Source: Sulfuritalea hydrogenivorans sk43H (lineage in GTDB: Bacteria > Pseudomonadota > Gammaproteobacteria > Burkholderiales > Rhodocyclaceae). From it: DNA of 64,000 nucleotides. How positions within the stretch are numbered: the stretch's first letter is position 1; every line of letters starts with the position of its first letter. Location of the stretch: assembly GCF_000828635.1 (NCBI RefSeq), contig NZ_AP012547.1:2604001-2668000 (forward strand), in the 5' to 3' direction. The notes under the pieces were generated by a model that ran no database searches, was not told the DNA's origin, and worked only from the letters and a program-made list of their open reading frames with translations. Shown here one piece after another: positions 13,937 through 41,979 of this stretch. The position numbers and the translations under genes were made by a program.

Positions 13937-14182
13937 CCGCACAGCGGAATCCCTGCTGCGATTCCGCCAAAACACGCCGGGTTACCCAGAGTAATCATGG
14001 GCAAACCAATGCGACGCTTTGCCGCAGCGCAGCATGCAAACCCCTGTGAATACGATGATTTCTTGTCCTGAATCAAATGCCCAAGAACCCGTGTTGGGGT
14101 ATCCTCGCGCCCCATATGTATCGAGTTTCCGAAAGTTCGTTTCAACCGCGCGCTGCAGCGCGCTCACGTAAAGGGCAGAAAC
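13937..14182. other. Intergenic region before the heme-copper oxidoreductase cluster
   Basis: 246 bases with no gene that I can support. It holds a hairpin GCGGAATC / GATTCCGC (13944-13967) without a following T-run and presumably the promoter of the next cluster; I see no TTGAY-N4-RTCAA box here. Confidence 0.5.
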
Positions 14183-14332
14183 ATGGCGAATAACAACGAC
14201 GAAGATGTTCCCTTCATGCAGAAGTTGCTGGATAACCACTTCCTGCTCCTGTTCCTGGGAGTAGCGTCTCCCGGCGTTCTCTATATCTTGTGGGGCATTG
14301 TGGACATCATGAGTGTCCCCCTCGCCAAGTAA
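14183..14332 (+). CDS. Small single-span subunit of B-family heme-copper oxidoreductase (subunit IIa-like)
   Basis: A 49-residue protein with an acidic N-terminus (MANNNDEDVPFMQKLLDNH) and one transmembrane helix (about 20-42, LLLFLGVASPGVLYILWGIV). GGGC stands eight bases before the ATG. It sits 27 bases ahead of the CuA subunit gene. Thermus ba3 oxidase has a comparable one-helix subunit IIa, so I read it as the small membrane subunit of the complex made by the next two genes. The assignment rests on size, topology and position; sequence similarity cannot be judged at this length. Confidence 0.75.
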   Translation: MANNNDEDVPFMQKLLDNHFLLLFLGVASPGVLYILWGIVDIMSVPLAK

Positions 14333-14359: not shown

Positions 14360-14899
14360 ATGAGCGCAATCCTGCCGCCTTCAGAGCGGTTGTGGTGGAA
14401 AACACCGATTTCGGGGCAAGAATGGACGTGGATCGGCATCGCCTTCGTCTGGGCCATGATCATGTTCGTCATGATGGTCTATTGGCACATCAACGGTAAG
14501 CAGAACCTCTCGAACGAGGTTTACAAGACAACAACCGAAATGTTCACGGCCAAGACGGAAGCCTTCGTCAAGGAAAACACCATTCGTACCGAAACCGATC
14601 AGCAGATTCCGGTAGCCAAGCCGAATGCCAAGGGCGAAGCCTTCCTGCTGGCACGTTTGTGGGCCTGGTATCCGATTCTGGAACTGGAAGCCGGCAAGAC
14701 CTACAAGATTCATCTGTCGTCTGTCGACTACAACCATGGCTTCTCGCTGCAGCCGACCAACATCAATATCCAGGTCATCCCCGGCTATGAGCATGTGGTC
14801 AAGATGACACCGACCAAGGCCGGCACCTACGCCATCGTTTGTAATGAATACTGCGGCATCGGGCACCACACGATGCTTGGCCGTATTTACGTGAAATAA
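14360..14899 (+). CDS. Heme-copper oxidoreductase subunit II with CuA site (CbaB/NorS-like)
   Basis: 179 residues, short like ba3-type subunit II. One N-terminal membrane helix (about 22-44) anchors a periplasmic cupredoxin domain. CuA ligands are visible: His in DYNHGF (about 126) and the C-terminal CNEYCGIGHHTM motif (C-x3-C-x3-H-x2-M). It therefore accepts electrons from a periplasmic cytochrome c or cupredoxin. AGGGAG stands six bases before ATG 14360. It lies 12 bases before the catalytic subunit gene. The CuA site is found both in ba3 oxygen reductases and in the sNOR (NorSY) type of nitric oxide reductase, so this subunit does not settle which reaction the complex performs. Confidence 0.92.
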   Translation: MSAILPPSERLWWKTPISGQEWTWIGIAFVWAMIMFVMMVYWHINGKQNLSNEVYKTTTEMFTAKTEAFVKENTIRTETDQQIPVAKPNAKGEAFLLARLWAWYPILELEAGKTYKIHLSSVDYNHGFSLQPTNINIQVIPGYEHVVKMTPTKAGTYAIVCNEYCGIGHHTMLGRIYVK

Positions 14900-14911
14900 G
14901 GGGGACCATAG

Positions 14912-16609
14912 ATGGCAACTACTTACCGTACCTGTCCGCGCACCGGGCTGCAGTTCGACCTCGATGCCGACAAACTGATGCGCTGGAACGCCGTAGCCGG
15001 CGTGCTCTGGCTTCTCGTGGGCGGCATCACCGCCCTGCTGGTGATTCTGACCCGCTGGCCAGCCATCAAGCTGCTGCCGGCGGATCAGTTCTACCTGATC
15101 CTGACGGCCCACGGCATCGACATGCTGATCCTGTGGATCATCTACTTTGAAATGGCGGTGCTCTACTTCGCCTCGTCGACCCTGCTGCGATGCCGACTTG
15201 CCACGCCCAAAGTGGCCTGGCTCGGTTTCTGGCTGATGGCAATAGGCGGCATCGTGACCAACGTCGCCATCTTCCAGGGCGAGTCGAGCGTGATGTTCAC
15301 GTCCTATGTGCCGATGCAGGCCGCGCCGCACTTCTACCTCGGCATCATCCTGTTTGCCGTGGGCGCGCTGATCGGCTGTGGCGTGTTCTTCGGTACGCTG
15401 GTGATCGCCAAGCGCGAGAAGACCTACACCGGCTCACTGCCACTGGTTACCTTCGGTGCATTGACGGCGGCCATCATCGCGGTATTCACCATCCTCTCCG
15501 GCGCCGCGATTCTGATCCCGACCTTCCTCTGGTCTGTGGGCCTGATCAAGGAAGTCGATCCGCAGCTGTATCGCATGATCTGGTGGGCACTGGGTCACTC
15601 CTCGCAGCAGATCAACGTTGCCGCCCACGTCTCGATCTGGTACCTGATCGCCGCCGTGGTGTTCGGCGCCAAGCCGCTGTCGGAAAAGGTCTCGCGCTTC
15701 GCCTTCCTGCTCTACATCCTGTTCCTGCAACTGGCCAGCGCGCACCATCTGCTGTCCGACCCGGGCATGAGCGCGGAATGGAAAGTGCTGAACACGTCGT
15801 ACTTCATGTACTTCGCGGTGCTGGCCTCGATGATCCACGGCTTCACGGTTCCGGGCGCGATCGAAGCGGCGCAGCGCAAGAAGGGCTTCACCAACGGCCT
15901 GTTCGAGTGGCTGCGCAAGGCTCCGTGGGGCAACCCATTGTTCTCGGGCATGTTCATCTCGCTGGTCGGCTTCGGCTTCCTCGGCGGCATTTCGGGCGTC
16001 GTTCTGGGCACCGAGCAGATCAACATGCTGATGCACAACACCTTCTACGTGCCGGGCCATTTCCATACCACGGTCGTCGTCGGTACCACGCTGGCCTTCA
16101 TGTCGATCACCTACCTGCTGGTGCCGACGCTGTTCCGGCGTGAAATGATGTTCCCGAAACTGTGCCAGATCCAGCCCTACCTCTACGGTCTCAGCATGTG
16201 CGTGCTCGGCCTGGTGATGATGGGCGCCGGCACGCTGGGCGTTTCCCGCCGTCACTGGGACATGGCCTTCTCGGGTGCACCGTTCCAGTATGAGTGGCCG
16301 GGTGCCGCTTACCTGATGATGGGTCTCACCGGCATCTTCGGCGTGATCGCGGTCATCGGTGGCGGTCTGTGGATATTCCTGGTGGTATGGTCGCTGTTGT
16401 TCGGCAAGAAGCTCGACGGTGGTCCGATCTCCGACAAGCCGACGCCGATTCCGGACCAGACCGCTGCGGCAGCGGCGTCCCACGCGGGTAGCGAAGAGCA
16501 TATCGGCGTACCGGGCACCGTGGTTCTGGCCATGACGTTGCTGGTCTGCTTCGTCCTCTACTACTTCGTGAATTGGAAGTACCTGTCCGAAGTCTGGGGT
16601 CTCAGCTGA
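14912..16609 (+). CDS. B-family heme-copper oxidoreductase subunit I, NorY-like (possible NO reductase) or ba3 oxidase
   Basis: 565 residues, 13 or so membrane helices. Heme and CuB ligands are in place: His67 (helix II), His229 in WWALGH (helix VI), His278-His279 in ASAHHLL (helix VII) and His383/His385 in PGHFHT (helix X). The sequence aligns well with Thermus ba3 from helix VI onward. However, the helix VI motif reads GHSSQQ, so the position four after His229, the cross-linked Tyr of B-family oxygen reductases (GHPxVY), is Gln233. Loss of that Tyr is a mark of nitric-oxide-reducing branches. Gene order (CuA subunit, catalytic subunit, later senC) is that of norSY-senC (also called coxB2A2-senC) in ammonia oxidisers. 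I favour NO reduction but cannot exclude oxygen reduction. Confidence 0.9.
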   Translation: MATTYRTCPRTGLQFDLDADKLMRWNAVAGVLWLLVGGITALLVILTRWPAIKLLPADQFYLILTAHGIDMLILWIIYFEMAVLYFASSTLLRCRLATPKVAWLGFWLMAIGGIVTNVAIFQGESSVMFTSYVPMQAAPHFYLGIILFAVGALIGCGVFFGTLVIAKREKTYTGSLPLVTFGALTAAIIAVFTILSGAAILIPTFLWSVGLIKEVDPQLYRMIWWALGHSSQQINVAAHVSIWYLIAAVVFGAKPLSEKVSRFAFLLYILFLQLASAHHLLSDPGMSAEWKVLNTSYFMYFAVLASMIHGFTVPGAIEAAQRKKGFTNGLFEWLRKAPWGNPLFSGMFISLVGFGFLGGISGVVLGTEQINMLMHNTFYVPGHFHTTVVVGTTLAFMSITYLLVPTLFRREMMFPKLCQIQPYLYGLSMCVLGLVMMGAGTLGVSRRHWDMAFSGAPFQYEWPGAAYLMMGLTGIFGVIAVIGGGLWIFLVVWSLLFGKKLDGGPISDKPTPIPDQTAAAAASHAGSEEHIGVPGTVVLAMTLLVCFVLYYFVNWKYLSEVWGLS

Positions 16610-16635: not shown

Positions 16636-16702
16636 CCCCGCACTCCGGTGCGGGGAACCTGCCTGAATCGGGCTTGGCCAGCAGGCCCGATTCAAGCAGG
16701 TT
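16636..16702 (+). other. Two consecutive hairpins between the catalytic subunit and ctaB
   Basis: CCCCGCAC-TCCG-GTGCGGGG (16636-16655) is followed by an 18-base-arm hairpin (16656-16673 with 16685-16702, one mismatch) ending in TTT. They could terminate part of the transcripts or protect the upstream mRNA end, lowering ctaB expression relative to the oxidoreductase genes. Confidence 0.6.
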
Positions 16703-16738: not shown

Positions 16739-16749
16739 AAAGACGCTTG

Positions 16750-17640
16750 ATGGAATCGACGCTGCCCCCCAACAAATCAACCGGCTTCCCCTTCCGTGCC
16801 ATCATGGGAGTGTTCAAGCTGCGCATCGGCGTCGTAATAACCTTTACCGCACTGGCCGGTTTGTCGGTAAGCGCCGGCCCCAGCCTGAGCCTCGCGCAAC
16901 TCATCATCCTGACGCTTGCCGTGCTGGTTTCCTCAGCCAGCGCGGGCGCCTTCAACCAGTATTACGAACACGACATCGATCCCCTGATGTCGCGCACCAG
17001 CAAACGCCCCTTCGCCACCGGTGAAATCAAACACGGACCGATCTGGCTGCTGATCATTTTCGGGCTGATGGCACTGTCCGTCGCCGCTGCCTGGCTCGCG
17101 CTCAATGCCTGGGCCGCGATGTTCACCTTCCTCGGCGCATTCTTCTACGCGATCGTCTATACGGTCTGGCTCAAGCGTCGCACCTGGCTCAACATCGTGT
17201 TCGGCGGTCTGGCGGGCAGTTGGGCTGTCCTGGCGGGAGCAACCGCGGCCGATCCGCAGGTCGGCGCCGTGCCGCTTGCCCTCGCCTTCGTGCTCTTTCT
17301 GTGGACCCCGCCGCACTTCTGGAGCCTGGCGATTGCCTTTCGCGAGGACTACGCTGCCGCCGGCGTCCCCATGCTGCCGGTGGTCGTCGGCGACAAGCGC
17401 GCGGCACAAACCATTTTCGCCAGCACCCTGGCTCTGGTGGCTGCGTCCTTCCTGCCGCTGGCCTTCGGCCTCGGCGCAATCTACTTTGCCGGCGCCGCTG
17501 TCGGTGGCGCCCTGTTCATCCAGAAGGCCTGGCGCCTGATGCGGAACACCAACCGTGAAACAGCCATGACCTGCTTCCATGCCTCACTGGCTCAGTTGAC
17601 TCTGGTACTCACTGCTGCAATCATCGACGCTCGTTTTTAG
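16750..17640 (+). CDS. ctaB: Protoheme IX farnesyltransferase (heme O synthase)
   Basis: 296 residues from ATG 16750, the normal length; an open frame extends upstream to 16648 but would cross the C10 tract and both hairpins, so I reject the longer form. The UbiA-family prenyl-diphosphate site NQYYEHDIDPLMSRTSKRP (about 67-85) and the second motif YTVWLKRRTWLNIVFGG (about 137-153) identify a CyoE/CtaB enzyme. It farnesylates heme B to heme O in the membrane, supplying the heme-copper enzyme encoded upstream. No ctaA is in the window, so conversion to heme A cannot be shown. No good Shine-Dalgarno precedes the ATG. Confidence 0.93.
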   Translation: MESTLPPNKSTGFPFRAIMGVFKLRIGVVITFTALAGLSVSAGPSLSLAQLIILTLAVLVSSASAGAFNQYYEHDIDPLMSRTSKRPFATGEIKHGPIWLLIIFGLMALSVAAAWLALNAWAAMFTFLGAFFYAIVYTVWLKRRTWLNIVFGGLAGSWAVLAGATAADPQVGAVPLALAFVLFLWTPPHFWSLAIAFREDYAAAGVPMLPVVVGDKRAAQTIFASTLALVAASFLPLAFGLGAIYFAGAAVGGALFIQKAWRLMRNTNRETAMTCFHASLAQLTLVLTAAIIDARF

Positions 17641-17657: not shown

Positions 17658-18536
17658 GTGATCCATCATTGTTTTCGTGCTGCGCTTGCAGCGGCCCTGG
17701 TCTTTGCAGCGCCTTGCGCCCTGTCGGCCGACAAGCCCGGAGAGCCCAAGCTGGCCCAGCAGCCCCAGGGAGCGCGGACCGGTCTGGTCCTCACCACGCT
17801 TGACGAGAAGGCGGCGCTTGAACGCTCGCAGGGCGTGATCGGCAAGCCGGTGGGTGACCATGTACTGCTCGATCGGCAGGAGCGGCCGACACCGCTGGCC
17901 AAGTACCGCGGCAAACCCCTGCTGGTGAATTTCATCTACACCGCCTGCTTCAATGTCTGCCCCACCACCACCAAGAATCTGCAAAAGGCCGTCGAGACAA
18001 CCGTCAGCGTGCTCGGAGCCGATCGCTTCAATATCGTCAGCATCGGCTTCAACCAGCCCTTCGATTCGCCACAAGCCATGAAGGCCTTCGCCACCCAGTA
18101 CGGCATCCATCTGCCGAACTGGGAATTCCTCAGCCCGGCGGCGGCGATCGTCGACGAATTGACGCGTGATTTCGGCTTCAGCTATGTAGCGACGACCGCC
18201 GGCTTCGACCACATGAACCAGGTCACCATCGTTGATGCCGAGGGCAGGATTTTCAGGCAGGTGTATGGCGAGACCTTCACCGCCGCGGACTTGGCGGAGC
18301 CGCTCAAGGCGATGATTACCGGCGCGCCGATCCCGCCCCAAATCGGCACCCTGGCGGAAATTGCCGACCGCATCCGGATACTTTGTTCCGTCTATGACCC
18401 CACCACCGGCAAATACCGCACCAACTACGCGCTGTATTTCGAGATCGTCGGCTTCATCAGCTTCATGATCTTCATGCTCTGGGTGGCCTGGAGCTTCACG
18501 AAAAAACGCCGCGACGACAAGATTCAATCAGGTTGA
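17658..18536 (+). CDS. senC: SCO1/SenC/PrrC-family copper assembly protein with C-terminal anchor
   Basis: 292 residues starting at GTG 17658. A signal sequence (about 1-23) leads to a thioredoxin-like SCO domain with the copper motif TACFNVCPTT (C-x3-C, about residue 97) and a conserved His in the GFDHMNQ segment. A C-terminal membrane helix (about 260-282) is followed by a basic tail; most SCO proteins are anchored at the other end. SCO proteins deliver copper to, or reduce, the CuA site, here that of the upstream subunit II. The presence of senC after subunits II and I matches norSY-senC clusters. The stop codon lies inside an FNR-type box serving the next gene. Confidence 0.9.
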   Translation: MIHHCFRAALAAALVFAAPCALSADKPGEPKLAQQPQGARTGLVLTTLDEKAALERSQGVIGKPVGDHVLLDRQERPTPLAKYRGKPLLVNFIYTACFNVCPTTTKNLQKAVETTVSVLGADRFNIVSIGFNQPFDSPQAMKAFATQYGIHLPNWEFLSPAAAIVDELTRDFGFSYVATTAGFDHMNQVTIVDAEGRIFRQVYGETFTAADLAEPLKAMITGAPIPPQIGTLAEIADRIRILCSVYDPTTGKYRTNYALYFEIVGFISFMIFMLWVAWSFTKKRRDDKIQSG

Positions 18537-18640: not shown

Positions 18641-20203
18641 GTGAGCTTGCACGCAGCCTTGCGCGGCAACGCGCAAACCTTCTTCGAACATATCGAGAAT
18701 TTTCTCGATGCGTCCTTTGGCGGCACGGATAATCCATTGCGCCATCTGGGCGCTCTCGGCTTGTTTTTTCTCTGGATACTGGTCGCCACCGGGCTCTATC
18801 TCTACACGGTGCTCGATACCAGCATCGAAGGCGTCTACAGCTCGATCGGCTACCTGTCGCAGGAACAGTGGTATCTCGGTGGCATACTGCGCAGCCTGCA
18901 CCGCTACGCATCGAACGGATTCGTGCTGGTCATGATGCTGCATCTGGTGCGGGAATGGGCCTACGGCCGCTATTACGGCTTTCGCCTCTATTCCTGGGTC
19001 ACCGGCGTACCGCTGATCTGGTTCGCCTACATTTCGGGCATCGGCGGCTACTGGATCGTCTGGGACCGGCTGGCGCAGTTTTCCGCGGTCGCGACCACGG
19101 AGCTGCTCGACTGGCTGCCGTTCTTCAACGAACCGACGGCACGCAACTTCCTCATGCCGGATTCGATCAACGATCGATTTTTCACGGTACTGGTGTTCAT
19201 CCACATCGGCGTTCCGCTGATGCTGATCCTCGGCCTCTGGGCCCACGTCAATCGCATCAGCAAGGTGGACTACCTGCCTTCGCGGCGCGTGATGCTGGCA
19301 ACCCTGGCCAGCTTTCTGGTGCTGGCCCTGTTCATTCCGGCGCAGAGCCAGGCGCCCGCGAACCTGGCCGTGGTCGCGACCGACCTGCCGCTGAACTGGT
19401 TCATCCTCTTCATCCATCCGCTGACCGACATCACATCGCCGGCAGCTGTCTGGACACTCGTCTTCGGCACGACGATCCTGCTCTTCGCCCTGCCCTTCCT
19501 GCCTCACCCGGCCGCCCAGCCGATTGCCGTGGTCGATGCGGCCAATTGCAACGGCTGCAGCCGCTGCCACGTCGATTGTCCCTACGAGGCGATCACCATG
19601 GCGATTCATCCCGACAAGCCGGGCCACAAGATCGCCATTGTCGATCCCGACAACTGCGCCGGTTGCGGCATCTGCGCCGGCGCCTGTCCGTCATCGACAC
19701 CGTTCCGCAGCCAGGAACGGCTGGTGACGGGCATCGACATGCCGCAGCAACCGGTCGATGTCATGCGCCAGCAACTCGAAGCCGAAGTGGCACGGCTTTC
19801 CGGCAAAACCAGACTGCTTGTCTTCGGCTGCGACAAGGGCGCCGACGTGCGCGGCCTGGCCGCGATGGATACCGCAGCCATCAGCCTGATCTGCACTGGC
19901 ATGCTGCCGCCCTCCTTCATCGAATACGCCCTGCGCAGCGGCGTCGATGGCATCGTCGTCACCGGCTGCCGCGATGGCGGTTGCGATTTCCGCCTCGGCA
20001 TGCAATGGACCCGGGAGCGGCTGGCCCACCAGCGCGAACCCTATTTGCGCAGCCTCGTACCCATGGATCGACTGCAAGTGGTCCCCGCGTCGCGCGACGA
20101 AGGCATGCAACTCGCCGCCGCCGTGCAAGAATTCAGAACCCAGCTTGAAACCCGAACGGTCACCAGCAGCAGACCTCCCGCCTATTCCCGGAGAAGAATA
20201 TGA
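18641..20203 (+). CDS. Cytochrome b6-like / 2[4Fe-4S] ferredoxin / MvhD-like fusion protein
   Basis: 520 residues, GTG start. Residues 1-295 form a cytochrome b domain of about six helices. Two H-x13-H pairs (from HRYASNG and HIGVPL) give bis-His ligation of two b hemes. The position of the quinol-oxidation PEWY motif reads PLNW. A ferredoxin domain follows with CNGCSRCHVDCP (from 303) and CAGCGICAGACP (from 339). The C-terminus (about 390-500) resembles the MvhD/FrhD hydrogenase delta family, with Cys near 397, 418, 443 and 448 (GCRDGGC); the usual second Cys of the first pair is absent. No Rieske protein or cytochrome c1 is encoded nearby. I infer a membrane electron-transfer subunit linking quinone hemes to a cytoplasmic iron-sulfur or flavin partner. 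It is the first gene behind an FNR-type box. Confidence 0.85.
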   Translation: MSLHAALRGNAQTFFEHIENFLDASFGGTDNPLRHLGALGLFFLWILVATGLYLYTVLDTSIEGVYSSIGYLSQEQWYLGGILRSLHRYASNGFVLVMMLHLVREWAYGRYYGFRLYSWVTGVPLIWFAYISGIGGYWIVWDRLAQFSAVATTELLDWLPFFNEPTARNFLMPDSINDRFFTVLVFIHIGVPLMLILGLWAHVNRISKVDYLPSRRVMLATLASFLVLALFIPAQSQAPANLAVVATDLPLNWFILFIHPLTDITSPAAVWTLVFGTTILLFALPFLPHPAAQPIAVVDAANCNGCSRCHVDCPYEAITMAIHPDKPGHKIAIVDPDNCAGCGICAGACPSSTPFRSQERLVTGIDMPQQPVDVMRQQLEAEVARLSGKTRLLVFGCDKGADVRGLAAMDTAAISLICTGMLPPSFIEYALRSGVDGIVVTGCRDGGCDFRLGMQWTRERLAHQREPYLRSLVPMDRLQVVPASRDEGMQLAAAVQEFRTQLETRTVTSSRPPAYSRRRI

Positions 20204-20218
20204 CGACATTCCCCCCGG

Positions 20219-20266
20219 CCCCCTTGCCAAGCAAGGGGGTGACGATTGTTCGCGGGCAATGCCCGC
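20219..20266. other. Two small hairpins in the gap after the cytochrome b-MvhD gene
   Basis: CCCCCTTGC-CAA-GCAAGGGGG (20219-20239) and GCGGGCA-A-TGCCCGC (20252-20266). A CTTGGGGCGGC string just after them recalls the 80-base repeat at 40777-40936, so this gap may be a decayed relative of that element. Confidence 0.6.
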
Positions 20267-20317
20267 TCCATGCAACTGGCTGTTCCTTCTTGGGGCGGCT
20301 CTACGAAGGGACTCATC

Positions 20318-20833
20318 ATGGCTAAACCCGCCGCCATCGTCGGCCAGATCATCCTTTATGGCGCGTTCGCCGCCTTCATCGGCTACTTCGCCACCGCGCC
20401 CACCTACAAGCAGATACCCGACGACGTCGCGCTGATCAAGCTCTCGATGAGCCATCTCGGCGGCCGCGAATGTCGCAAGCGCACTGCCGAGGAGCTGGCC
20501 AAGCTGCCACCCAACATGCGCGCGCCGCTCGATTGCCCGCGCGGACGTTCCGACATCAAGCTGGTGCTGGAACTCGACGGCAAGCCGATGTTCGAGACCG
20601 TGATGCATCCCACCGGGCTTTCCAAGGACGGCGTTTCCACCGTCTACAAGCGCTTCGAAGTGAAGGCCGGCACCTATCGGCTCGCGGTGAAAATGAACGA
20701 CAATCTGGTCATCAATCGCGACTTCAATTTCGTCAAGGAAGAGCAAGTCACGCTGAAGCCGGCACAGGTGCTGGTGGTCGACTTCAATCCGGACAAGGGC
20801 GGCCTGTTTTTCCAGCAAGCCGCCGCGAAATAA
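20318..20833 (+). CDS. Membrane-anchored protein of unknown function between the two cytochrome b fusions
   Basis: 171 residues from ATG 20318, preceded by GAAGGG eight bases upstream; an open frame from 20246 would cross the hairpins and I reject it. One N-terminal helix (about 8-27, IVGQIILYGAFAAFIGYFAT) is followed by a mostly polar domain with a beta-rich look (DIKLVLELDGKPMFETVM, YRLAVKMNDNLVINRDFNFV), reminiscent of small periplasmic or FixH-like accessory domains, though I do not recognise a family. Two Cys (near 49 and 71) could form a disulfide. Placed between and in line with two cytochrome b fusion genes, it is probably part of, or assembles, the same complex. Confidence 0.75.
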   Translation: MAKPAAIVGQIILYGAFAAFIGYFATAPTYKQIPDDVALIKLSMSHLGGRECRKRTAEELAKLPPNMRAPLDCPRGRSDIKLVLELDGKPMFETVMHPTGLSKDGVSTVYKRFEVKAGTYRLAVKMNDNLVINRDFNFVKEEQVTLKPAQVLVVDFNPDKGGLFFQQAAAK

Positions 20834-20884
20834 GCACCCGGGCACTCAACCGAAACTCTCCATCCTTCTGCGCGGATACAGACC

Positions 20885-22798
20885 ATGCTGACCCTCCTCC
20901 AAAAACTCGTGCGCTGGTTTTTCATGCGCGCGGAGAACCTGTTCAATGTCGCCTTCGGCGAAAAGATCAACCCCTTCTACCACCTCGGCACCATCAGCTT
21001 CTGGCAGTTCTGGCTGCTGATCGGCACCGGCCTCTACCTCTATGTCTTTGCCGATACCGCGGTGCATGATGCCTACGAGTCGGTCGAGCGCATCACGCAT
21101 GACCAGTGGTGGGCCGGCGGCATCATGCGCAGCGTGCATCGCTATGCCACCGACGGCATGATCCTGACCATGCTGCTGCACATGATGCGGCACTTCGCCT
21201 ATGACCGCTACCGCGGCTTCCGCTGGTTCTCCTGGGCCACCGGCATCGGCCTGATCTGGCTGGTGTATATCTCCGGCCTCAACGGCTTCATGCTGGTGTG
21301 GGACAAGCTGGCGCAGTTCGTCGTCGTCGCCACCGCCGAGTGGTTCGACATCCTGCCGATGTTCAACGGCACCCTGATCCGCAATTTCATCTACCAGGAA
21401 AACGTCACCAGCCGGCTGTTCACGCTGCTCGCCTTCATCCACATCGGCGCGCCGCTGATTGCCGGCGTCATCGCCTGGGTGCATGTGCAGCGCGTGCCGC
21501 GCGCCCACGTCAATCCGCCGCGCGAGATCGCCATCGCCTTTACCCTGATGTTTGTCGTTCTGGCGCTGGTCAAGCCGGTGGTGAGCCAGGGCGGTGAAGC
21601 AGACATGCTGGTGGTGCCGACCAACATCGCCTTCGACTGGTTCCAGATGCCGGTGCTGGCGCTGGTCTATGTCGTCGATCCGCTGTATCTGTGGTTCGGC
21701 ATCGTCGGCTTGTCCGTGCTGCTGTTCCTCGCGCCATGGCTGCCGCCCAAGCGCATGGGCGCGGCCCCGGCCGAAGCCGTCGTCACCTTCCATCCCGACC
21801 ACAGGACCGTCGCCATCCGCTTCGACGAAACCCTGCTCGATGCCGGCCTGCGCCATGACATCAACCTGCCTTACGAGTGCCGCAACGGCGGCTGTGGCCA
21901 GTGCAAATGCACGGTGCTCTCCGGCAATGTCGATCCGGGCCTGTACCAGCCGAACGCCCTTTCGGCCGAGGAACGCGCGGCGGGCAAGGTGCTGCTGTGC
22001 TGCGCCACGGCACTGGGCGACGTCGAAATCGAGTACGCGGCACCAGCGGTGCCCAGTGCGATTCGCCAGTACACCGCCCACGTGGTGACCATGGAAAGGC
22101 TGACCCACGACGTCATGCGCGTCATGCTCAAGCTGCCGCACGGGCAACAGATTTCGTTCAGGGCCGGGCAGTACATCAACATCATCCTCGACGACGGCCA
22201 GCGCCGCGCCTTCTCCTTCGCCAATCCGCCCCATCAGCCCGACCTGATCGAACTGCAGATCCGCCTGATGCCGGGCGGTCGCTTCACTACCCATGTGTTC
22301 GAACACATGAAGGAAGACGATGCCGTGCAGTTCGAAGGCCCGCTGGGCGATTTCTCGCTGCGCGAATCCGAGCGGCCGATCGTCTTCGTCGCCGGCGCCA
22401 CCGGCTTTGCGCCGGTCAAGAGCATGGTCGAAGATGCCTTCCATCGCGGTCTCAAGCGCCCCATCTACCTCTATTGGGGCGTGCGCAAGCTGGCCGACCT
22501 GTATCTGCCGGACCTGCCGCAACGATGGGCGCGCGATCACGAGAATTTCCACTTCATCCCCGTGCTCTCCGATGCCACGCCCGAAGATAACTGGAGCGGC
22601 CGCACCGGGCTGGTGCACGAGGCCATTCTCGAAGACTTCCCGGATCTCAGGGGCAAGGAGATTTACGCATGCGGCTCGGTAAAGATGGTCGAGGCGATCT
22701 TCCCGTCGCTGAAGAACCAGGGCGCAGAGGAAGGCATGTGCTTCTCCGATGCCTTCACCGTCTCGGCGCGTTCGATGGCATTCCAGCCGAAGCAGTAG
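20885..22798 (+). CDS. Cytochrome b6-like / [2Fe-2S] ferredoxin / FAD-NAD(P) reductase fusion protein
   Basis: 637 residues. The N-terminal cytochrome b domain (about 1-300) has two H-x13-H pairs (HRYATDG and HIGAPL) for two b hemes; the PEWY position reads AFDW. A plant-type [2Fe-2S] domain follows (CRNGGCGQCKC from 332, LLCCA near 378). The C-terminal 240 residues are a ferredoxin-NADP reductase module: RRAFSFAN binds FAD and GATGFAPVKSM the nicotinamide nucleotide. The cytoplasmic part would exchange electrons with NAD(P)H and pass them through the [2Fe-2S] cluster to the membrane hemes. I know of no characterised enzyme with this order. It is the third gene in line with the cytochrome b-MvhD fusion and probably its partner. 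A hairpin follows at 22813-22840. Confidence 0.87.
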   Translation: MLTLLQKLVRWFFMRAENLFNVAFGEKINPFYHLGTISFWQFWLLIGTGLYLYVFADTAVHDAYESVERITHDQWWAGGIMRSVHRYATDGMILTMLLHMMRHFAYDRYRGFRWFSWATGIGLIWLVYISGLNGFMLVWDKLAQFVVVATAEWFDILPMFNGTLIRNFIYQENVTSRLFTLLAFIHIGAPLIAGVIAWVHVQRVPRAHVNPPREIAIAFTLMFVVLALVKPVVSQGGEADMLVVPTNIAFDWFQMPVLALVYVVDPLYLWFGIVGLSVLLFLAPWLPPKRMGAAPAEAVVTFHPDHRTVAIRFDETLLDAGLRHDINLPYECRNGGCGQCKCTVLSGNVDPGLYQPNALSAEERAAGKVLLCCATALGDVEIEYAAPAVPSAIRQYTAHVVTMERLTHDVMRVMLKLPHGQQISFRAGQYINIILDDGQRRAFSFANPPHQPDLIELQIRLMPGGRFTTHVFEHMKEDDAVQFEGPLGDFSLRESERPIVFVAGATGFAPVKSMVEDAFHRGLKRPIYLYWGVRKLADLYLPDLPQRWARDHENFHFIPVLSDATPEDNWSGRTGLVHEAILEDFPDLRGKEIYACGSVKMVEAIFPSLKNQGAEEGMCFSDAFTVSARSMAFQPKQ

Positions 22799-25591: not shown

Positions 25592-26932
25592 TCATGGCTT
25601 GCGCGGCAGCATCACCTTGAGGCAAACCAGCACGAACATGATGCCGCCGATCACCGCGATCAGGCCGCCAAGACCCATCATGCCCATGCCGATCTTCTGC
25701 GGCAGCGTGGTCAGGGCCTGCTCGGCGCCGGCCACCTTGCGCTGCACGCCGTAGCCGCCGGACCAGGCCAGGCCGAGCACATGAATCAGCTGTCCGCCGC
25801 CATACACATAGGGCTGCCAGCGCGCCATTTTTCCCTCGACCTCGCCGAAGCCCAGTTGCGGCAGCAGCACATAAGCCAGGCCCATGAAAGCCAGCGTCAC
25901 GCCGACCGTGGAGCCGTGATAGTGCGCCGGGATCACCACGTTGGCGCCCTGGATCATGTAAGCCAGCACGCCGCCGACTGCGAACAGCGAAAACGAGGCG
26001 ATGAACGCCGATTTCGCCGCATGCGGCGCCACCTTGCGCATCGCCATCAGGCCAAGGAAGCCGACCAGAATCAGCGGCGCCATGTACGGGTGGCCCCAGA
26101 TCATCAGCTTGGCGAAAAGCTCCATGTGCGGCAGTTCGCCGGCCGGAATGGTCAGGTAGATCGCCGGCACCACCAGCAGCGGCAGCGCAGCGATCCAGAA
26201 CATCACCGACAACGCGCGCGGCGAAACGATGCCGCCGGCGCCCAGACTGGCCGCGATCGACAGCCAGGCCACCACCATCAGCAGCGCGTGCTGGAATTGC
26301 AGCGTGTGGCCGCCGCCCCAGAACAGCACCTCGAAGTAGAGCTTTGGCTCGATTTCGGCGTCGCGCGGCACGATCAGCCACGACCAGACAAAAGCCATCA
26401 GCGCCAGGGCGGCCGCCACCGCGCCGAGAAAGGCGCCGAGTTGCAACGGTGCGCCGAAGAAAGGACGCGGCCAGGTGGTGATCAGCGCGCGCAGCACGGC
26501 GAGGCTGAAGCCCGCGCCGCAGATCCACAAGGAAGCGTAGAACACCTTCTGCTGCAACACCGGAATGTAATTGTTGAGCACCGGATCGGCGCCCGGCAGG
26601 AAAGGCGAAACCGTCATTACCGCGGTACCCAGCGCCGCCAGCACGAAGCCGCCCCAGCCCAGCCACGGCACGCCGTCACGTCCCAGGGCGCTCCAGATCA
26701 CCGCGGCGAAGGCCATGAACCAGACCGCAACGGAAAGGTCCACGTGAACAACCAGCGCCGAGCGGAAGAAATCCTTCAGCGGAAAGACATCCTGAATCCC
26801 CGGCGTGCGCGACAACACCAGCAGGATGGCCAGCAGGCCGGAACCGATCAGGGCCATCAGCCCCAACCACAACCATGCCCTGGCAAGGGTTTTTGGCGCC
26901 CCGCCGGAAACCGTGACGATATGCGAATTCAC
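25592..26932 (-). CDS. Heme-copper oxidase subunit I-like protein lacking the CuB His-His pair
   Basis: 446 residues, about 12 membrane helices, GTG start at 26932. His63 in helix II and His337/His339 in helix X (IPAHYHGS) match heme ligands, and His209 (WGGGH, helix VI) matches the first CuB ligand. Helix VII (about 241-264, PLLVVPAIYLTIP) has no His-His pair, and no HH occurs anywhere in the protein. A normal CuB site, hence ordinary oxygen or NO reduction, is therefore doubtful. Length resembles cbb3/NOR-type subunit I without extensions. It is divergent from an SCO lipoprotein gene, 96 bases apart, suggesting a copper-linked job all the same. It could be a heme relay, a gas-binding protein or a decayed reductase. 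Confidence 0.8.
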   Translation of the reverse strand: MNSHIVTVSGGAPKTLARAWLWLGLMALIGSGLLAILLVLSRTPGIQDVFPLKDFFRSALVVHVDLSVAVWFMAFAAVIWSALGRDGVPWLGWGGFVLAALGTAVMTVSPFLPGADPVLNNYIPVLQQKVFYASLWICGAGFSLAVLRALITTWPRPFFGAPLQLGAFLGAVAAALALMAFVWSWLIVPRDAEIEPKLYFEVLFWGGGHTLQFQHALLMVVAWLSIAASLGAGGIVSPRALSVMFWIAALPLLVVPAIYLTIPAGELPHMELFAKLMIWGHPYMAPLILVGFLGLMAMRKVAPHAAKSAFIASFSLFAVGGVLAYMIQGANVVIPAHYHGSTVGVTLAFMGLAYVLLPQLGFGEVEGKMARWQPYVYGGGQLIHVLGLAWSGGYGVQRKVAGAEQALTTLPQKIGMGMMGLGGLIAVIGGIMFVLVCLKVMLPRKP

Positions 26933-27028
26933 TATTGCTCCGCGAAAAATGAGAGAAGTATACGGCAAGGGCCGCGCGTAAAACCGGGTAAACTGCTTAT
27001 TGACCTGACTACCACCCATTCCGTTTCC

Positions 27029-30245: not shown

Positions 30246-31685
30246 ATGCACCCTGGGTCATTCCTTCTAGCCCTGTTGCTGCTGTTCTGGAACGGCCTTG
30301 CCGGCGCCGCGCCGGACAGCCGCAACCTGCAAGTCGCGGCCGGCGGCGAGAAGCGCGTCGCGTTGGTCATCGGCAACAGTGCCTATCCCGGCCTGGCGGC
30401 CCTCAAGAACCCCGTCAATGACGCCAGCGACATCGCGGCCAAGCTCAGGAGTCTTGGCTTCGACGTCACGCTCAAGACCAATGTCAATCTCAAGCAAATG
30501 CTGCGCGCCATGACGGAGTTCGGCGGCAAACTCTCGGATGGCAGTGTCGCCTTGTTCTTCTACGCTGGCCACGGCATGCAGGTGCGCGGCAAGAACTACC
30601 TGATCCCCGTCGATGCCGAAATCCTCAGTGAAGCCGCCGTCAGCAGCGAAGCCGCTGATGCTGACCAACTGCTCGATAAACTCGCGCCTGCTCGCGTCAG
30701 CATGGTCATCCTCGACGCCTGCCGCAACAACCCCTTCGAACGCAAGTTCCGCAGCAGCGGCGGTGGCGGTCTTGCGCAGATGAATGCACCGGCGGGTACC
30801 CTGGTGGCTTACGCCACTGCTCCAGGCAAGACTGCGTCGGATGGAACGGGCCGCAATGGTCTTTACACCCAGGAACTGCTCCGTGCCATGGGTGAGCCCA
30901 ACCGGAAGGTCGAGGACGTCTTCAAGCGTGTCCGCACCAACGTGCTCAAGAAGAGCGGGGAAACCCAGATCCCATGGGAGTCCTCCAGCCTGACTGGCGA
31001 TTTCTACTTCATGCCGGGAGCTGCACTGACGCCATCCCTTGCTGCGCCTGAAACGCCTCCTCCGCCTGCAACGGCTGTTGATGAAGCCGAAAGGATGCTT
31101 TGGCAGGCAGTCGAACAGAGCAACAACCCGGCCGATTATGAAATCTATCTGAAGCAGTATTCTCGCGGCCACTATGTTCAGCTGGCGATGGCGCGCCTTG
31201 ATCAACTCAAGGAGGAAGCAGCCACGCAGGAGGAATCAAATGCCTGGAAGACAGCTGAACAGGGGAGTAAAGCCGATGTTGCAACCTACCTGGAACGCTT
31301 TCCGAATGGAAAATATGCCGGCCTGGCACGACTGCGGCTGGCCAGGATTCAGACGGAAGAAACAAAGGCGACAGACATCTATGTGGGGAAATGGATTTGT
31401 GTCATGAAGGCTGCGACCGGACCCGGCCACACGTGCCATTTTGAAATCACTCGCGGCAGGAACAACGATATTCTGATTGCCGGTGCCTACGAATGGAAAG
31501 GATTTATTGGAGCTGGCGTGAAAAAGCCGTTTTCGAATGCGCGGCTTTTAGATGATCAGCTTGAGTTTCAAATAGTGAATATCAGTGACCACCCGAATAG
31601 CACGGTAAAACTTCGTCCTGTCAGTGCTTCCCGGCTTGAAGGCACGGTAAATGACAGTAGTTTGATCTACGCGACGAAGCAATAG
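30246..31685 (+). CDS. Exported caspase-like (peptidase C14 / orthocaspase) protein
   Basis: 479 residues. After a signal peptide (about 1-21) comes a caspase-fold domain (about 35-255) with the catalytic His in YAGHGMQ (about 106) and Cys in LDACRNNP (about 160), both intact. A region with Ala/Glu-rich helices and repeat-like YEIYLKQYSRGHYVQLA / VATYLERFPNGKYAGLA segments (about 290-365) follows, and a C-terminal beta-rich domain of unknown type. The sequence after about 31240 is less GC-rich than the neighbours, so the C-terminal part may be acquired. Such secreted orthocaspases cleave after basic residues. No defence partner genes are nearby. Hairpin-forming sequence at 30115-30142 precedes the gene. 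Confidence 0.88.
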   Translation: MHPGSFLLALLLLFWNGLAGAAPDSRNLQVAAGGEKRVALVIGNSAYPGLAALKNPVNDASDIAAKLRSLGFDVTLKTNVNLKQMLRAMTEFGGKLSDGSVALFFYAGHGMQVRGKNYLIPVDAEILSEAAVSSEAADADQLLDKLAPARVSMVILDACRNNPFERKFRSSGGGGLAQMNAPAGTLVAYATAPGKTASDGTGRNGLYTQELLRAMGEPNRKVEDVFKRVRTNVLKKSGETQIPWESSSLTGDFYFMPGAALTPSLAAPETPPPPATAVDEAERMLWQAVEQSNNPADYEIYLKQYSRGHYVQLAMARLDQLKEEAATQEESNAWKTAEQGSKADVATYLERFPNGKYAGLARLRLARIQTEETKATDIYVGKWICVMKAATGPGHTCHFEITRGRNNDILIAGAYEWKGFIGAGVKKPFSNARLLDDQLEFQIVNISDHPNSTVKLRPVSASRLEGTVNDSSLIYATKQ

Positions 31686-33452: not shown

Positions 33453-34175
33453 TCAGCCCTCTTGTGCGATTTTTTCCAGCGCGGCAATGTCGCCGCGAAA
33501 ATATTTGGTGTTCTTGCTGCCGTAGATGTACTGCAGGATGCCGAGCCGCTTGAACTCCGAAACCAGGCGGCTGACGGTCTCGAAGGTAATGCCGAGGATC
33601 GCCGCCATGTCCTCGCCGGTGAAGCGGATGATGCGGTCGCTGTTTCCGGTACGCAGCTTCAACAGCAGCCGCGCCATGCGGGTGCGCGCCGGAATGTTGC
33701 CGCCGACAATCTGCGCCAGCCAGTTCTGCGCCTCGCTCAAGGCCGCCTGCGATGTCTCCATCAGGCGCATCTGCAGGCTGCCGTGGCTCTCGATGAACTT
33801 GTGGAAGTACGGCATCGGAATGCGGCAGGCCCGCACCGTGCCGACCGCAATCGCGGAATATTCGTGACGCTCGCGGAAGGTGGCTTCGAGTCCGGCGACA
33901 TCGCCAATCTTCAGCACGCGCACGATGCGAACCACGCCGCTGGGTTCGTAATGCACCATCTTCACCGCGCCGCCACGGATGCAATACACCGCGTCGGCCG
34001 GCGTATCCATGGCGAACAGGGTGGCGCCGGGCGCGAAATCGAAATCGTCGATCCCGGCATGGAAATCGATCAGGTCTTCCAGCGAAACATCGCCGCACAC
34101 CATCTCGAGCCGTAGCGCGCAGGCGTTGCAATTGCTGCGTCCCTGGCAGCTCCTGTGATGATTGGTCTTGGTCAT
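33453..34175 (-). CDS. FNR/CRP-family transcriptional regulator with N-terminal cysteines
   Basis: 240 residues from ATG 34175. The N-terminus carries Cys10, 16, 19 and 27 (C-x5-C-x2-C-x7-C), with further Cys later, compatible with an oxygen-sensitive [4Fe-4S] cluster. A cyclic-nucleotide-like beta roll follows. The C-terminal helix-turn-helix contains ETVSR, matching the E-x-x-SR readout of FNR, which recognises TTGAT-N4-ATCAA. Five such boxes occur in the window, one ahead of this operon at 35485. It lies between nosL-like genes and nirN, so it is a good candidate for the local anaerobic or NO-responsive regulator. Whether oxygen or NO is the signal cannot be told. Confidence 0.92.
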   Translation of the reverse strand: MTKTNHHRSCQGRSNCNACALRLEMVCGDVSLEDLIDFHAGIDDFDFAPGATLFAMDTPADAVYCIRGGAVKMVHYEPSGVVRIVRVLKIGDVAGLEATFRERHEYSAIAVGTVRACRIPMPYFHKFIESHGSLQMRLMETSQAALSEAQNWLAQIVGGNIPARTRMARLLLKLRTGNSDRIIRFTGEDMAAILGITFETVSRLVSEFKRLGILQYIYGSKNTKYFRGDIAALEKIAQEG

Positions 34176-34224
34176 GGCAATTGGGCGTCGGCAACGGTTG
34201 TCCGACGCGAAGTAACAGATTATA

Positions 34225-34245
34225 AGTCGGCGCCGGCGGTACGGC
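34225..34245 (+). repeat. Dispersed repeat family A, copy 6
   Basis: Two mismatches. It fills much of the 88-base gap between the FNR-like gene and the nosL-like gene before it. Confidence 0.5.
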
Positions 34246-34263
34246 GGCGGCGGTGACGCTAGC

Positions 34264-34755
34264 TCAGAACTTTCCGTCGTCGAGCCTGAAGGGAAGATCC
34301 TTCGCCACCTGCTCGAACGTGAGGATGCGCCTGCCTTTGTGATCCTTGAGAAAATCGGCCGCATCCTCCCTGCTCGCCAGCGCGACCAGCTCATGGCCCA
34401 TCGGCCCCAGCACGTCGGAGCCGACCACGAACCAGGCCTTGCGCGCATCGACCGGCTGCAGGTTGTAGAAGTCGGTGACCCACAATGCAGCCATGTCCTC
34501 GCGCTTGTGGCCGGCGACATACTTCGCCGGCTCGAACCACATCTTGAACATGTCCTTGGCGCCGTCGAAATGGTGCGCGTGACCATCCTTGTACACGATG
34601 GTGGCGATCCAGTTCGGGTACTTCGAGACCAGCATGCCGCACACCGGGCAAAGATCCTTCGGCCCCGGCTTCGGCAACTTCGCCGCGCCCTGCGCCAGCG
34701 TCGCCGCGGGCAGCAGCGACGCGAGCAGGAACAGGAGCAGTGCGCGGCGATTCAT
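34264..34755 (-). CDS. NosL-like copper protein
   Basis: 163 residues. A signal peptide (about 1-22) without a lipobox Cys precedes a NosL-type domain starting with CPVCGM (Cys36, Cys39, Met41), the copper(I)-binding signature. DGHAHHFDGAKDMF and the later aromatic residues follow the family pattern. NosL is an outer-membrane copper chaperone for the CuZ site of nitrous oxide reductase; this copy would be a soluble periplasmic variant. It follows a second NosL-like gene after seven bases in an operon with the FNR-like regulator and nirN. Confidence 0.85.
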   Translation of the reverse strand: MNRRALLLFLLASLLPAATLAQGAAKLPKPGPKDLCPVCGMLVSKYPNWIATIVYKDGHAHHFDGAKDMFKMWFEPAKYVAGHKREDMAALWVTDFYNLQPVDARKAWFVVGSDVLGPMGHELVALASREDAADFLKDHKGRRILTFEQVAKDLPFRLDDGKF

Positions 34756-35368: not shown

Positions 35369-35697
35369 GATGGACTCCTTCATTAATGGGAAATGTGCAG
35401 TGCAATATTAGGCGTTGCGAATGCACTTTCTCTGCGGCATTTTGCCGCAGCGCGGCGTGCGGCAGCGCAATTTCACGCGCGTCTTTGATCACGATCAAAA
35501 ATCGGCCAGTCGAGGCAACAGCGCGACACCATGCCGCGCGGCGAATCGCCGCATGTGGCGTTTCGCCGCATAACTTTTGGTCCGAACGGCGACAGAATTC
35601 GCCACCCTAATTATTTGCGACGACGACTGACGGGTAACTCAACTTGACCGCGAGTCTGTCGTCACAACGGCTCGAACATCATCCCAAGGAAGCAACA
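35369..35697. other. Divergent regulatory region between nosL-like and TonB-receptor genes
   Basis: 329 bases without a gene. It contains the FNR box 35485-35498, a hairpin CTGCGGCA-TTT-TGCCGCAG (35432-35450), and several overlapping GCGGC/GCCGC inverted repeats at about 35530-35572. An AAGGA site serves the receptor start at 35698. Confidence 0.8.
35485..35498. promoter_or_regulatory. FNR box, perfect consensus
   Basis: TTGAT-CACG-ATCAA matches the FNR/DNR consensus exactly. It lies 117 bases before the nosL-like operon start and 200 bases before the TonB-receptor start on the other side. Confidence 0.85.
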
Positions 35698-41812: not shown

Positions 41813-41826
41813 TTGATCAAAATCAA
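41813..41826. promoter_or_regulatory. FNR box before the copper receptor gene
   Basis: TTGAT-CAAA-ATCAA, exact consensus, 154 bases before the oprC start. Confidence 0.8.
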
Positions 41827-41979
41827 GAGACATGTCTGCCGACAACAAGCTGCGACGGCTTGCCGCGCGGCCGATCGTCACATGCGGCCTTCGGTCGCAC
41901 GAGCGCGTGATCGCCGGCCTCTAACATGCGCGGCAATTCATCTGTCTCCAATTGTCTTGCCACTATCGGATCAACTCCA

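Follow-up and report, generated by a model that had tools for sequence, protein, structure and literature searches.

Cytochrome b fusion proteins P5 and P7 and the one-helix protein P6 as a conserved partner system of eNOR-type nitric oxide reductase

Introduction

Within a 64,000-nucleotide stretch of the Sulfuritalea hydrogenivorans sk43H genome, here called the window (RefSeq assembly GCF_000828635.1, contig NZ_AP012547.1, positions 2,604,001 to 2,668,000, forward strand), lie genes for two cytochrome b proteins fused to different soluble redox modules, with a small membrane-anchored protein encoded between them. With what do these three proteins, named P5, P6 and P7, exchange electrons? 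A first-pass annotation had proposed a membrane complex acting between NAD(P)H, a low-potential carrier and either quinone or a NorSY-like enzyme. The three genes are, in window coordinates:

18641..20203, + strand: P5, two-heme cytochrome b joined to 2[4Fe-4S] and an MvhD-like domain (520 amino acids, GTG start)
20318..20833, + strand: P6, one membrane helix and a soluble beta-sandwich, predicted periplasmic (171 amino acids)
20885..22798, + strand: P7, two-heme cytochrome b joined to [2Fe-2S], FAD and NAD(P) domains (637 amino acids)

Comparison across genomes identifies P5-P6, with or without P7, as a real and conserved partner system of eNOR, the heme-copper enzyme encoded upstream, and as new in the literature searched when taken as a functional unit. 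We give an even chance to the proposal that P5 and P7 would be alternative electron-input subunits of this eNOR-type nitric oxide reductase system, which is put forward because of near-total co-occurrence with eNOR, the accompanying nitrite-reduction genes, FNR/DNR-type boxes and the fusion of P5 to P6 in some relatives.

Co-occurrence of P5 and P6 with eNOR

In a class-level sample of 369 genomes, searched for P5 at E ≤ 1e-60 and for eNOR at E ≤ 1e-100, P5 was found in 34 and eNOR in 33, with 32 genomes having both (Fisher p about 1e-42, the genomes being phylogenetically non-independent). P5 occurred without eNOR in G215, a 77% complete genome, and in G259, where an eNOR fragment lies at a contig edge (L107; G and L numbers denote genomes and loci). 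In each of the 34 P5 genomes of this sample (33 fetched loci and the window) a P6 gene comes after P5 on the same strand, with gaps of up to 626 bp, and continuous assemblies mostly show the order coxB-coxA-(ctaB)-sco-P5-P6. P5 is a near-obligate companion of eNOR.

The order-level sample of 300 genomes revealed the place of P7. Here eNOR was present in 23 genomes, 21 of them with P5 and 2 with P7 only; P5 lay at the eNOR locus in 18 and elsewhere in 3 fragmented genomes. In the two P7-only genomes (G424, G501) P7-P6 is found at eNOR with no P5 match besides P7 itself, so that P7 stands in for P5. Among 20 order-level loci with intact flanks, P7 was present at 15 and P5, P6 and P7 together at 13. 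Three loci (L230, L232, L233) have the order P7-P6-P5-P6, with a P6 behind each fusion, and in L227-L229 P7 is divergently transcribed next to the eNOR operon. The 45 P7 loci carry the labels Sulfuritalea, Sulfurisoma, Ca. Accumulibacter, Rhodocyclales, Rhodocyclaceae, Burkholderiaceae, Nitrosomonadales or beta-/proteobacterial metagenome-assembled genomes, the closest being of Sulfuritalea type. The first-pass annotation had suggested following the three genes across genomes; P5 and P6 do nearly always accompany eNOR, but the trio does not hold together, with P7 in 3 of the 34 class-level P5 genomes (the genome of the window, G082 at a separate locus, and G342, where it is split in two at contig ends). 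A fixed set of P5, P6 and P7 is ruled out: P5 and P6 are constant and P7 is optional.

In a phylum-level sample, 33 of 319 genomes contain P5, four of them in two copies. On a plasmid of Defluviimonas sp. the operon is compact, with overlapping annotated sco/P5 and P5/P6 frames; the labels given there are 'cytochrome b N-terminal domain-containing protein' and, for the other, 'hypothetical protein'. A hemerythrin-family gene lies directly after P6 on this plasmid (L276, NZ_CP156080.1, 16089-16493).

Identity of the neighbouring enzyme

Upstream of P5 and on the same strand lie, in order, a 49-amino-acid open reading frame (ORF), a cupredoxin subunit, heme-copper subunit I, CtaB and SCO:

14183..14332, + strand: 49-amino-acid ORF with one helix, perhaps a small subunit resembling subunit IIa
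14360..14899, + strand: eNOR subunit II, cupredoxin (Pfam, alignment of relatives)
14912..16609, + strand: eNOR subunit I, with a heme-copper fold of B type and Gln233 replacing the cross-linked Tyr (Pfam, structure match, alignment)
16747..17640, + strand: heme O synthase CtaB (our choice of start; the ORF opens at 16648)
17658..18536, + strand: SCO1/SenC-family protein (Pfam)

The nearest solved structure of subunit I is the Thermus ba3 oxidase. The ba3 motif containing the cross-linked tyrosine, GHPIVY, is replaced by GHSSQQ, with Q233 aligned to the ba3 Tyr, and this glutamine is conserved in all 53 subunit I relatives, as are the heme and CuB ligands H67, H229, H278, H279, H383 and H385. 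In subunit II the CuA-type ligands C161, E163, C165, H169 and M172, together with H126, are invariant (56/56). Wherever the motif could be seen it read HSSQQ (138 of 138 loci, many being repeat fetches of one genome), including four Accumulibacter loci and, in addition, the Defluviimonas plasmid, where an annotated 61-codon-sized ORF holds the place of the 49-amino-acid ORF. The subunit I of L259, 50% identical and without the eNOR motif, was left out of the classing.

A published table of residues at the cross-linked Tyr position assigns Gln to eNOR and Asn to sNOR (PMC8756737; this and the other cited papers are represented here by excerpts). Because of its Gln, the heme-copper enzyme upstream of P5 is eNOR by active-site residue, with nitric oxide (NO) reductase activity predicted. 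It also resembles eNOR, the ba3-a1 type, in its cupredoxin subunit II and B-type fold. A NorSY/sNOR identity is ruled out by Gln where sNOR has Asn, and the norSY-senC-orf1 cluster of ammonia oxidisers encodes a different enzyme (PMC4940428, PMC6967387). Of the membrane complex proposed in the first-pass annotation, the predicted link between cytoplasmic reductants and quinone or a heme-copper enzyme stands, but the enzyme is eNOR rather than NorSY-like. eNOR has been described as having two subunits (PMC8756737), and the excerpted descriptions (PMC8756737, PMC8879329) make no mention of P5, P6, P7 or of hco2, a second heme-copper-type gene of this locus described below.

Nitrite reduction and FNR/DNR-type boxes

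That some nitrite reducers have no recognised nitric oxide reductase is a known puzzle. Many bacteria with eNOR, an enzyme often overlooked, otherwise seem to have no enzyme for removing NO. The window carries a NirS-type gene and a Crp/FNR-family regulator at 31.8-34.6 kb, as well as two candidate regulatory boxes:

14063..14076, no strand: FNR/DNR-like box TTGTCCTGAATCAA, upstream of the eNOR genes, 1 mismatch versus TTGAY-N4-RTCAA
18533..18546, no strand: FNR/DNR-type box TTGATACGAGTCAA, between sco and P5
31799..33487, - strand: NirS-type protein, cytochrome d1 domain with N-terminal cytochrome c
33456..34586, - strand: Crp/FNR-family regulator beside the NirS-type gene (start unfixed)

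A PF02239 match at E ≤ 1e-100 was found in 31 of the 34 class-level P5 genomes and in 2 of 33 genomes without P5, the latter taken at even steps through the class sample and unmatched by taxonomy; this family covers NirS, NirF and NirN, and about 10 of the 31 score where NirF and NirN also fall. NirK exceeded its cut-off in none of the 34 and in 2 of the 33. A single cNOR query (NorB, E ≤ 1e-20, partly fragmented genomes) detected a cNOR/qNOR-like gene in 12 of the 34, eight at E ≤ 1e-80 and four at 1e-29 to 1e-36, the weaker matches sitting in frames of about 800 amino acids; the same query gave no match in the other 22, including the single-contig genome of the window. All four nitrite-reducing genomes without P5 matched, although these controls were picked after the nitrite-reductase results.

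Boxes were scored against TTGAY-N4-RTCAA before P5 and within 450 bp before coxB, with a background for each, and loci with too little upstream sequence were omitted. A perfect box, with variable inner four bases, lies 75-109 bp before P5 in 35 of 37 Sulfuritalea/Accumulibacter-type loci (36 of 40 with partial loci kept), against 1.5% of random 200-bp stretches; elsewhere the frequency is 10/35 in L101-L137 (a group that includes a few order-level loci and in which the cytochrome b scored is P7 for L134 and L136) and 7/16 in order-level loci. Before coxB, perfect boxes were found in 19/25 loci of L101-L137, 11/19 order-level, 7/9 phylum-level and 5/22 Sulfuritalea/Accumulibacter-type loci (background 3.9%), and when one mismatch is allowed, all 22 scored loci of the last type show a box (background 9.7%).

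The window has two further boxes, perfect TTGAT-N4-ATCAA at 35485-35498 and 41813-41826, each directly ahead of a gene for a TonB-dependent receptor. Of these genes (35644-37875 and 41926-44244), the latter is most similar to heme receptors. A Caspase-domain (Peptidase_C14) protein is encoded at 30246-31685, just before the NirS-type gene region.

Structure of the fusion proteins

The reading frames of P5, P6 and P7 are all intact. In P5, Pfam places Cytochrome_B at 36-205, two [4Fe-4S] motifs within 295-352 and FlpD/MvhD at 410-503, and in P7 Cytochrome_B at 25-201, Fer2 at 304-376, FAD_binding_6 at 399-490 and NAD_binding_1 at 501-605, in agreement with the domain assignments of the first-pass annotation. 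That annotation had named an assembly artefact as the finding that would undo it; an artefact or chance fusion is ruled out by recurrence in dozens of separate assemblies.

The four heme-ligand histidines (87, 101, 188 and 202) are conserved in 98 of 98 P5/P7 sequences, R205 in 97, and twelve cysteines in the cluster-binding parts of P5 in 42 of 42. Asp252-Trp253 occupies the EW position of the PEWY motif of bc complexes; Asp-Trp is found in 96 of the 98 and Asn-Trp in 2, a Phe or Tyr follows in 94, and the PEWY proline is missing from nearly all rows printed. Position 35 is H, Q, Y, N or W and presumably corresponds to the heme-binding Cys of cytochrome b6. P5 and P7 share with cytochrome b6/bc complexes the cytochrome b family, the four heme ligands and R205, and have a DWF/DWY-type motif in the ef loop where those complexes have PEWY; they differ at position 35, in the cytoplasmic redox fusion and in an operon with no Rieske or c1/f. 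Pfam detected no Rieske or c1/f family among the operon genes, and the wider statement of the first-pass annotation, that Rieske, cytochrome c1, hydrogenase and Hdr genes are absent nearby, agrees with our scans, which covered part of the window ORFs and gave no match to these families among the genes scanned. A strong PF13631 cytochrome b match elsewhere in the genome is presumably the bc1 cytochrome b.

The order 2[4Fe-4S] then MvhD in P5 is that of the HdrA2 C-terminus (NF040770, 572-770). Unlike HdrA2/MvhD, P5 is joined to a cytochrome b, no HdrA flavin domain was found in it, and its operon lacks HdrBC and hydrogenase; with the curated HdrA2 model (NF040770, cut-off 1100 bits) P5 scores 90 bits, its C-terminal part alone matching. 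The sole other MvhD-domain match in the genome, a 772-amino-acid frame of HdrA2 size at contig position 2867162 (L004), far from the window, is a possible soluble partner of P5. RME88945.1, compared by listing, has cytochrome b6, DMSOR-beta and FlpD domains, the three types found in P5 (PMC8756737), and is listed among ORFs with a homologue of another domain, cytochrome C1 (PMC8756737).

P7 sequences form one clade of 23 leaves, including one truncated relative, with support 1.0 in a midpoint-rooted tree, which makes the exchange of the P5 module for that of P7 look like a single event. A third fusion, at L102:2672-5212 (- strand), joins a P5-type cytochrome b to a flavodoxin/FAD/NADPH diflavin (CysJ/CPR-like) reductase, and its 873-bp cytochrome b part is 100% identical to a P5 copy on the same contig, possibly through gene conversion, recent duplication or misassembly. 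These arrangements suggest a cytochrome b family whose cytoplasmic module serves as a plug-in port on an otherwise constant membrane part with P6. Tandem P5-P5 copies precede a single P6 in L252, L254 and L259, with 66-70% DNA identity over parts.

Accumulibacter counterparts

The protein described by Garcia-Martin in 2006 reportedly combines a cytochrome b/b6 with NAD(P)/flavin domains. P7 is 77-78% identical in Accumulibacter (L074-L076, L078-L080, L083, L085, L093 and L098, L078 being Ca. A. aalborgensis), the group behind biological phosphorus removal. A 'novel quinol reductase' of Accumulibacter with a homologue in Ca. A. aalborgensis (PMC4930944, citing Garcia-Martin 2006 and Skennerton 2015) and a 'cytochrome b/b6' (PMC6593511) have been reported. 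Both are very probably P7; the coupling of quinol oxidation to NAD(P)+ reduction by this 'novel quinol reductase' is putative. The excerpts assign the enzyme to the anaerobic TCA cycle and do not bring in eNOR, P5 or P6. One form of the eNOR partner system has thus very probably been noticed before, in another context. The view of the first-pass annotation that no such system had been described holds for the link to eNOR and for the module exchange, neither of which turned up in the literature searched, and falls short for P7. Titles and abstract beginnings yielded no cytochrome b/MvhD or cytochrome b/FNR fusion tied to eNOR, although the primary eNOR description may cover its neighbours.

These reports raise the alternative that P7, and P5 with it, would be quinone oxidoreductases working on the pool rather than wired to eNOR, either as NAD(P)H/ferredoxin:quinone reductases or in reverse, the latter matching the Accumulibacter proposal, in which quinol produced by succinate dehydrogenase is reoxidised. 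Conservation of the Qo-like DWF/DWY motif would suit such a role, as would the two literature reports, the divergent P7 of L227-L229 and the separate P7 locus of G082. However, near-total co-occurrence with eNOR and the FNR/DNR boxes would be unexpected for a general quinone enzyme, and by general bioenergetics the transfer from quinol to NAD+ is uphill, against the membrane potential, unless a high-potential acceptor is coupled. We consider a pool enzyme rather unlikely.

For Accumulibacter, a ba3 oxidase has been counted as an oxygen reductase and found in all genomes, with norZ in few (PMC6446978). This 'ba3' is presumably the eNOR of the loci analysed here; the four Accumulibacter loci with subunit I beside P5-P6-P7 carry the eNOR Gln. 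In UW-1, ba3 transcripts are high in the anaerobic stage (PMC6446978), which fits eNOR.

The one-helix protein P6

P6, which the first-pass annotation had noted as a membrane-anchored protein between the fusions, has one N-terminal hydrophobic helix and matched no Pfam or NCBIfam family. Its soluble domain is marked by C52 (79 of 81 sequences), C73 (78 of 81, one row being cut by a contig end) and H46 (77 of 81). The layout, a single helix and a soluble domain, is that of a Rieske protein, and the likeness stops there: no Rieske motif was found in the 81 sequences aligned. In L131 and L132 (G157 and G268, one genus), P5 and P6 form a single open frame, which argues for one complex and means that the C-terminus of P5 and the N-terminus of P6 share one side of the membrane. 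In the window the two genes are separated by a possible attenuator or mRNA-processing element:

20219..20239, no strand: perfect 9-bp inverted repeat, P5/P6 intergenic

The near-invariant cysteines and histidine of P6, together with the gene order CtaB-SCO-P5-P6, also bring to mind a role in maturation, in which P5-P6 would deliver electrons from the cytoplasm to the outside. There they would reduce copper or disulfides, so that the copper sites of eNOR can be assembled with the help of SCO. A second SCO-like gene and others resembling copper chaperones (by eye) in L102 point the same way. Against this stand the P6 proteins of L252 and L259, which lack both Cys, and the exchange of large modules and the tandem P5 copies, which would suggest flux over stoichiometric assembly. 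Such a function appears distinctly unlikely.

Proposed electron path

If P5 and P7 are electron-input subunits of the eNOR system, homology to cytochrome b helices A-F would place the fused redox module on the cytoplasmic side and the P6 domain outside. Electrons would enter P5 from an iron-sulfur or ferredoxin-type partner through 2[4Fe-4S]/MvhD, or P7 from NAD(P)H through FAD and [2Fe-2S], cross the membrane by way of the two b hemes, and be handed over in the periplasm at the Qo-like site (DWF/DWY, not PEWY) or via P6. The acceptor would be quinone, the CuA of eNOR or both, and eNOR would then reduce NO to nitrous oxide (N2O). The cytoplasmic module would be exchangeable, with the membrane part and P6 unchanged. 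Since BenC-like and NADPH diflavin reductases are known electron donors, we infer a flow from the cytoplasm to the membrane.

A motif such as DWF/DWY in the ef loop, a near-obligate high-potential partner, a single-helix P6 of Rieske-like layout and cytoplasmic modules of low-potential type are also what would be expected of a Rieske-free bifurcation of quinol at the Qo-like site. One electron would pass through P6 and CuA to eNOR, and the b hemes would carry the second to the module, whose outlets would be NAD(P)+ in P7 and a low-potential iron-sulfur partner in P5, with NO reduction driving reductant formation. P6, though, has neither a Rieske motif nor a known cofactor, and two P6 proteins lack both Cys; ubiquinone and CuA potentials make the balance for NAD+ look unfavourable (general knowledge), and the diflavin module of L102 suits electron input better. 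We regard this mechanism as very unlikely; if true, it would be a quinone-based bifurcation with interchangeable low-potential outlets.

Several observations weigh against the input-subunit proposal itself. By general bioenergetics, moving electrons out of the cytoplasm to the periplasm would cost membrane potential, and a direct wire would not need a quinone site. The P5 of the window is one of the two sequences of 98 with Asn at the Qo-like acid, the diflavin fusion is one case only, and the P6 proteins of L252 and L259 lack the cysteine pair. In G264, eNOR lies at a contig end and no P5 is present in the assembly, while in G157 and G268 P5 and eNOR share a contig at a distance of about 14-16 kb. 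None of 17 phylum-level loci has a perfect box before P5, and in Accumulibacter UW-LDO-IC the 'ba3' genes belong to an FNR-repressed cluster (PMC6446978). Finally, eNOR (ba3-a1) is reported to use cytochrome c as its electron donor (PMC8879329, citing another paper), and it may not need P5.

Should P5 and P7 nonetheless feed eNOR, NO reduction, and hence N2O release, would in these organisms be linked straight to NAD(P)H or ferredoxin and would no longer depend only on the bc1-cytochrome c chain, and the Accumulibacter 'novel quinol reductase' would gain a new role that can be tested.

A second heme-copper-type gene

Beyond P7 the window encodes a further member of the heme-copper superfamily:

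25592..27010, - strand: hco2, second COX1-superfamily protein (start unfixed)

No match to NCBIfam (3 members tried) or to a solved structure was obtained for hco2. H89, H235, H363 and H365 are present in all 44 alignment rows and H410 in 43, one row (L195) being a mis-assigned eNOR subunit I. The CuB site looks incomplete because no adjacent helix VII His pair is conserved. In many relatives (L101-L137, L219-L234), hco2 comes after P6 on the same strand.

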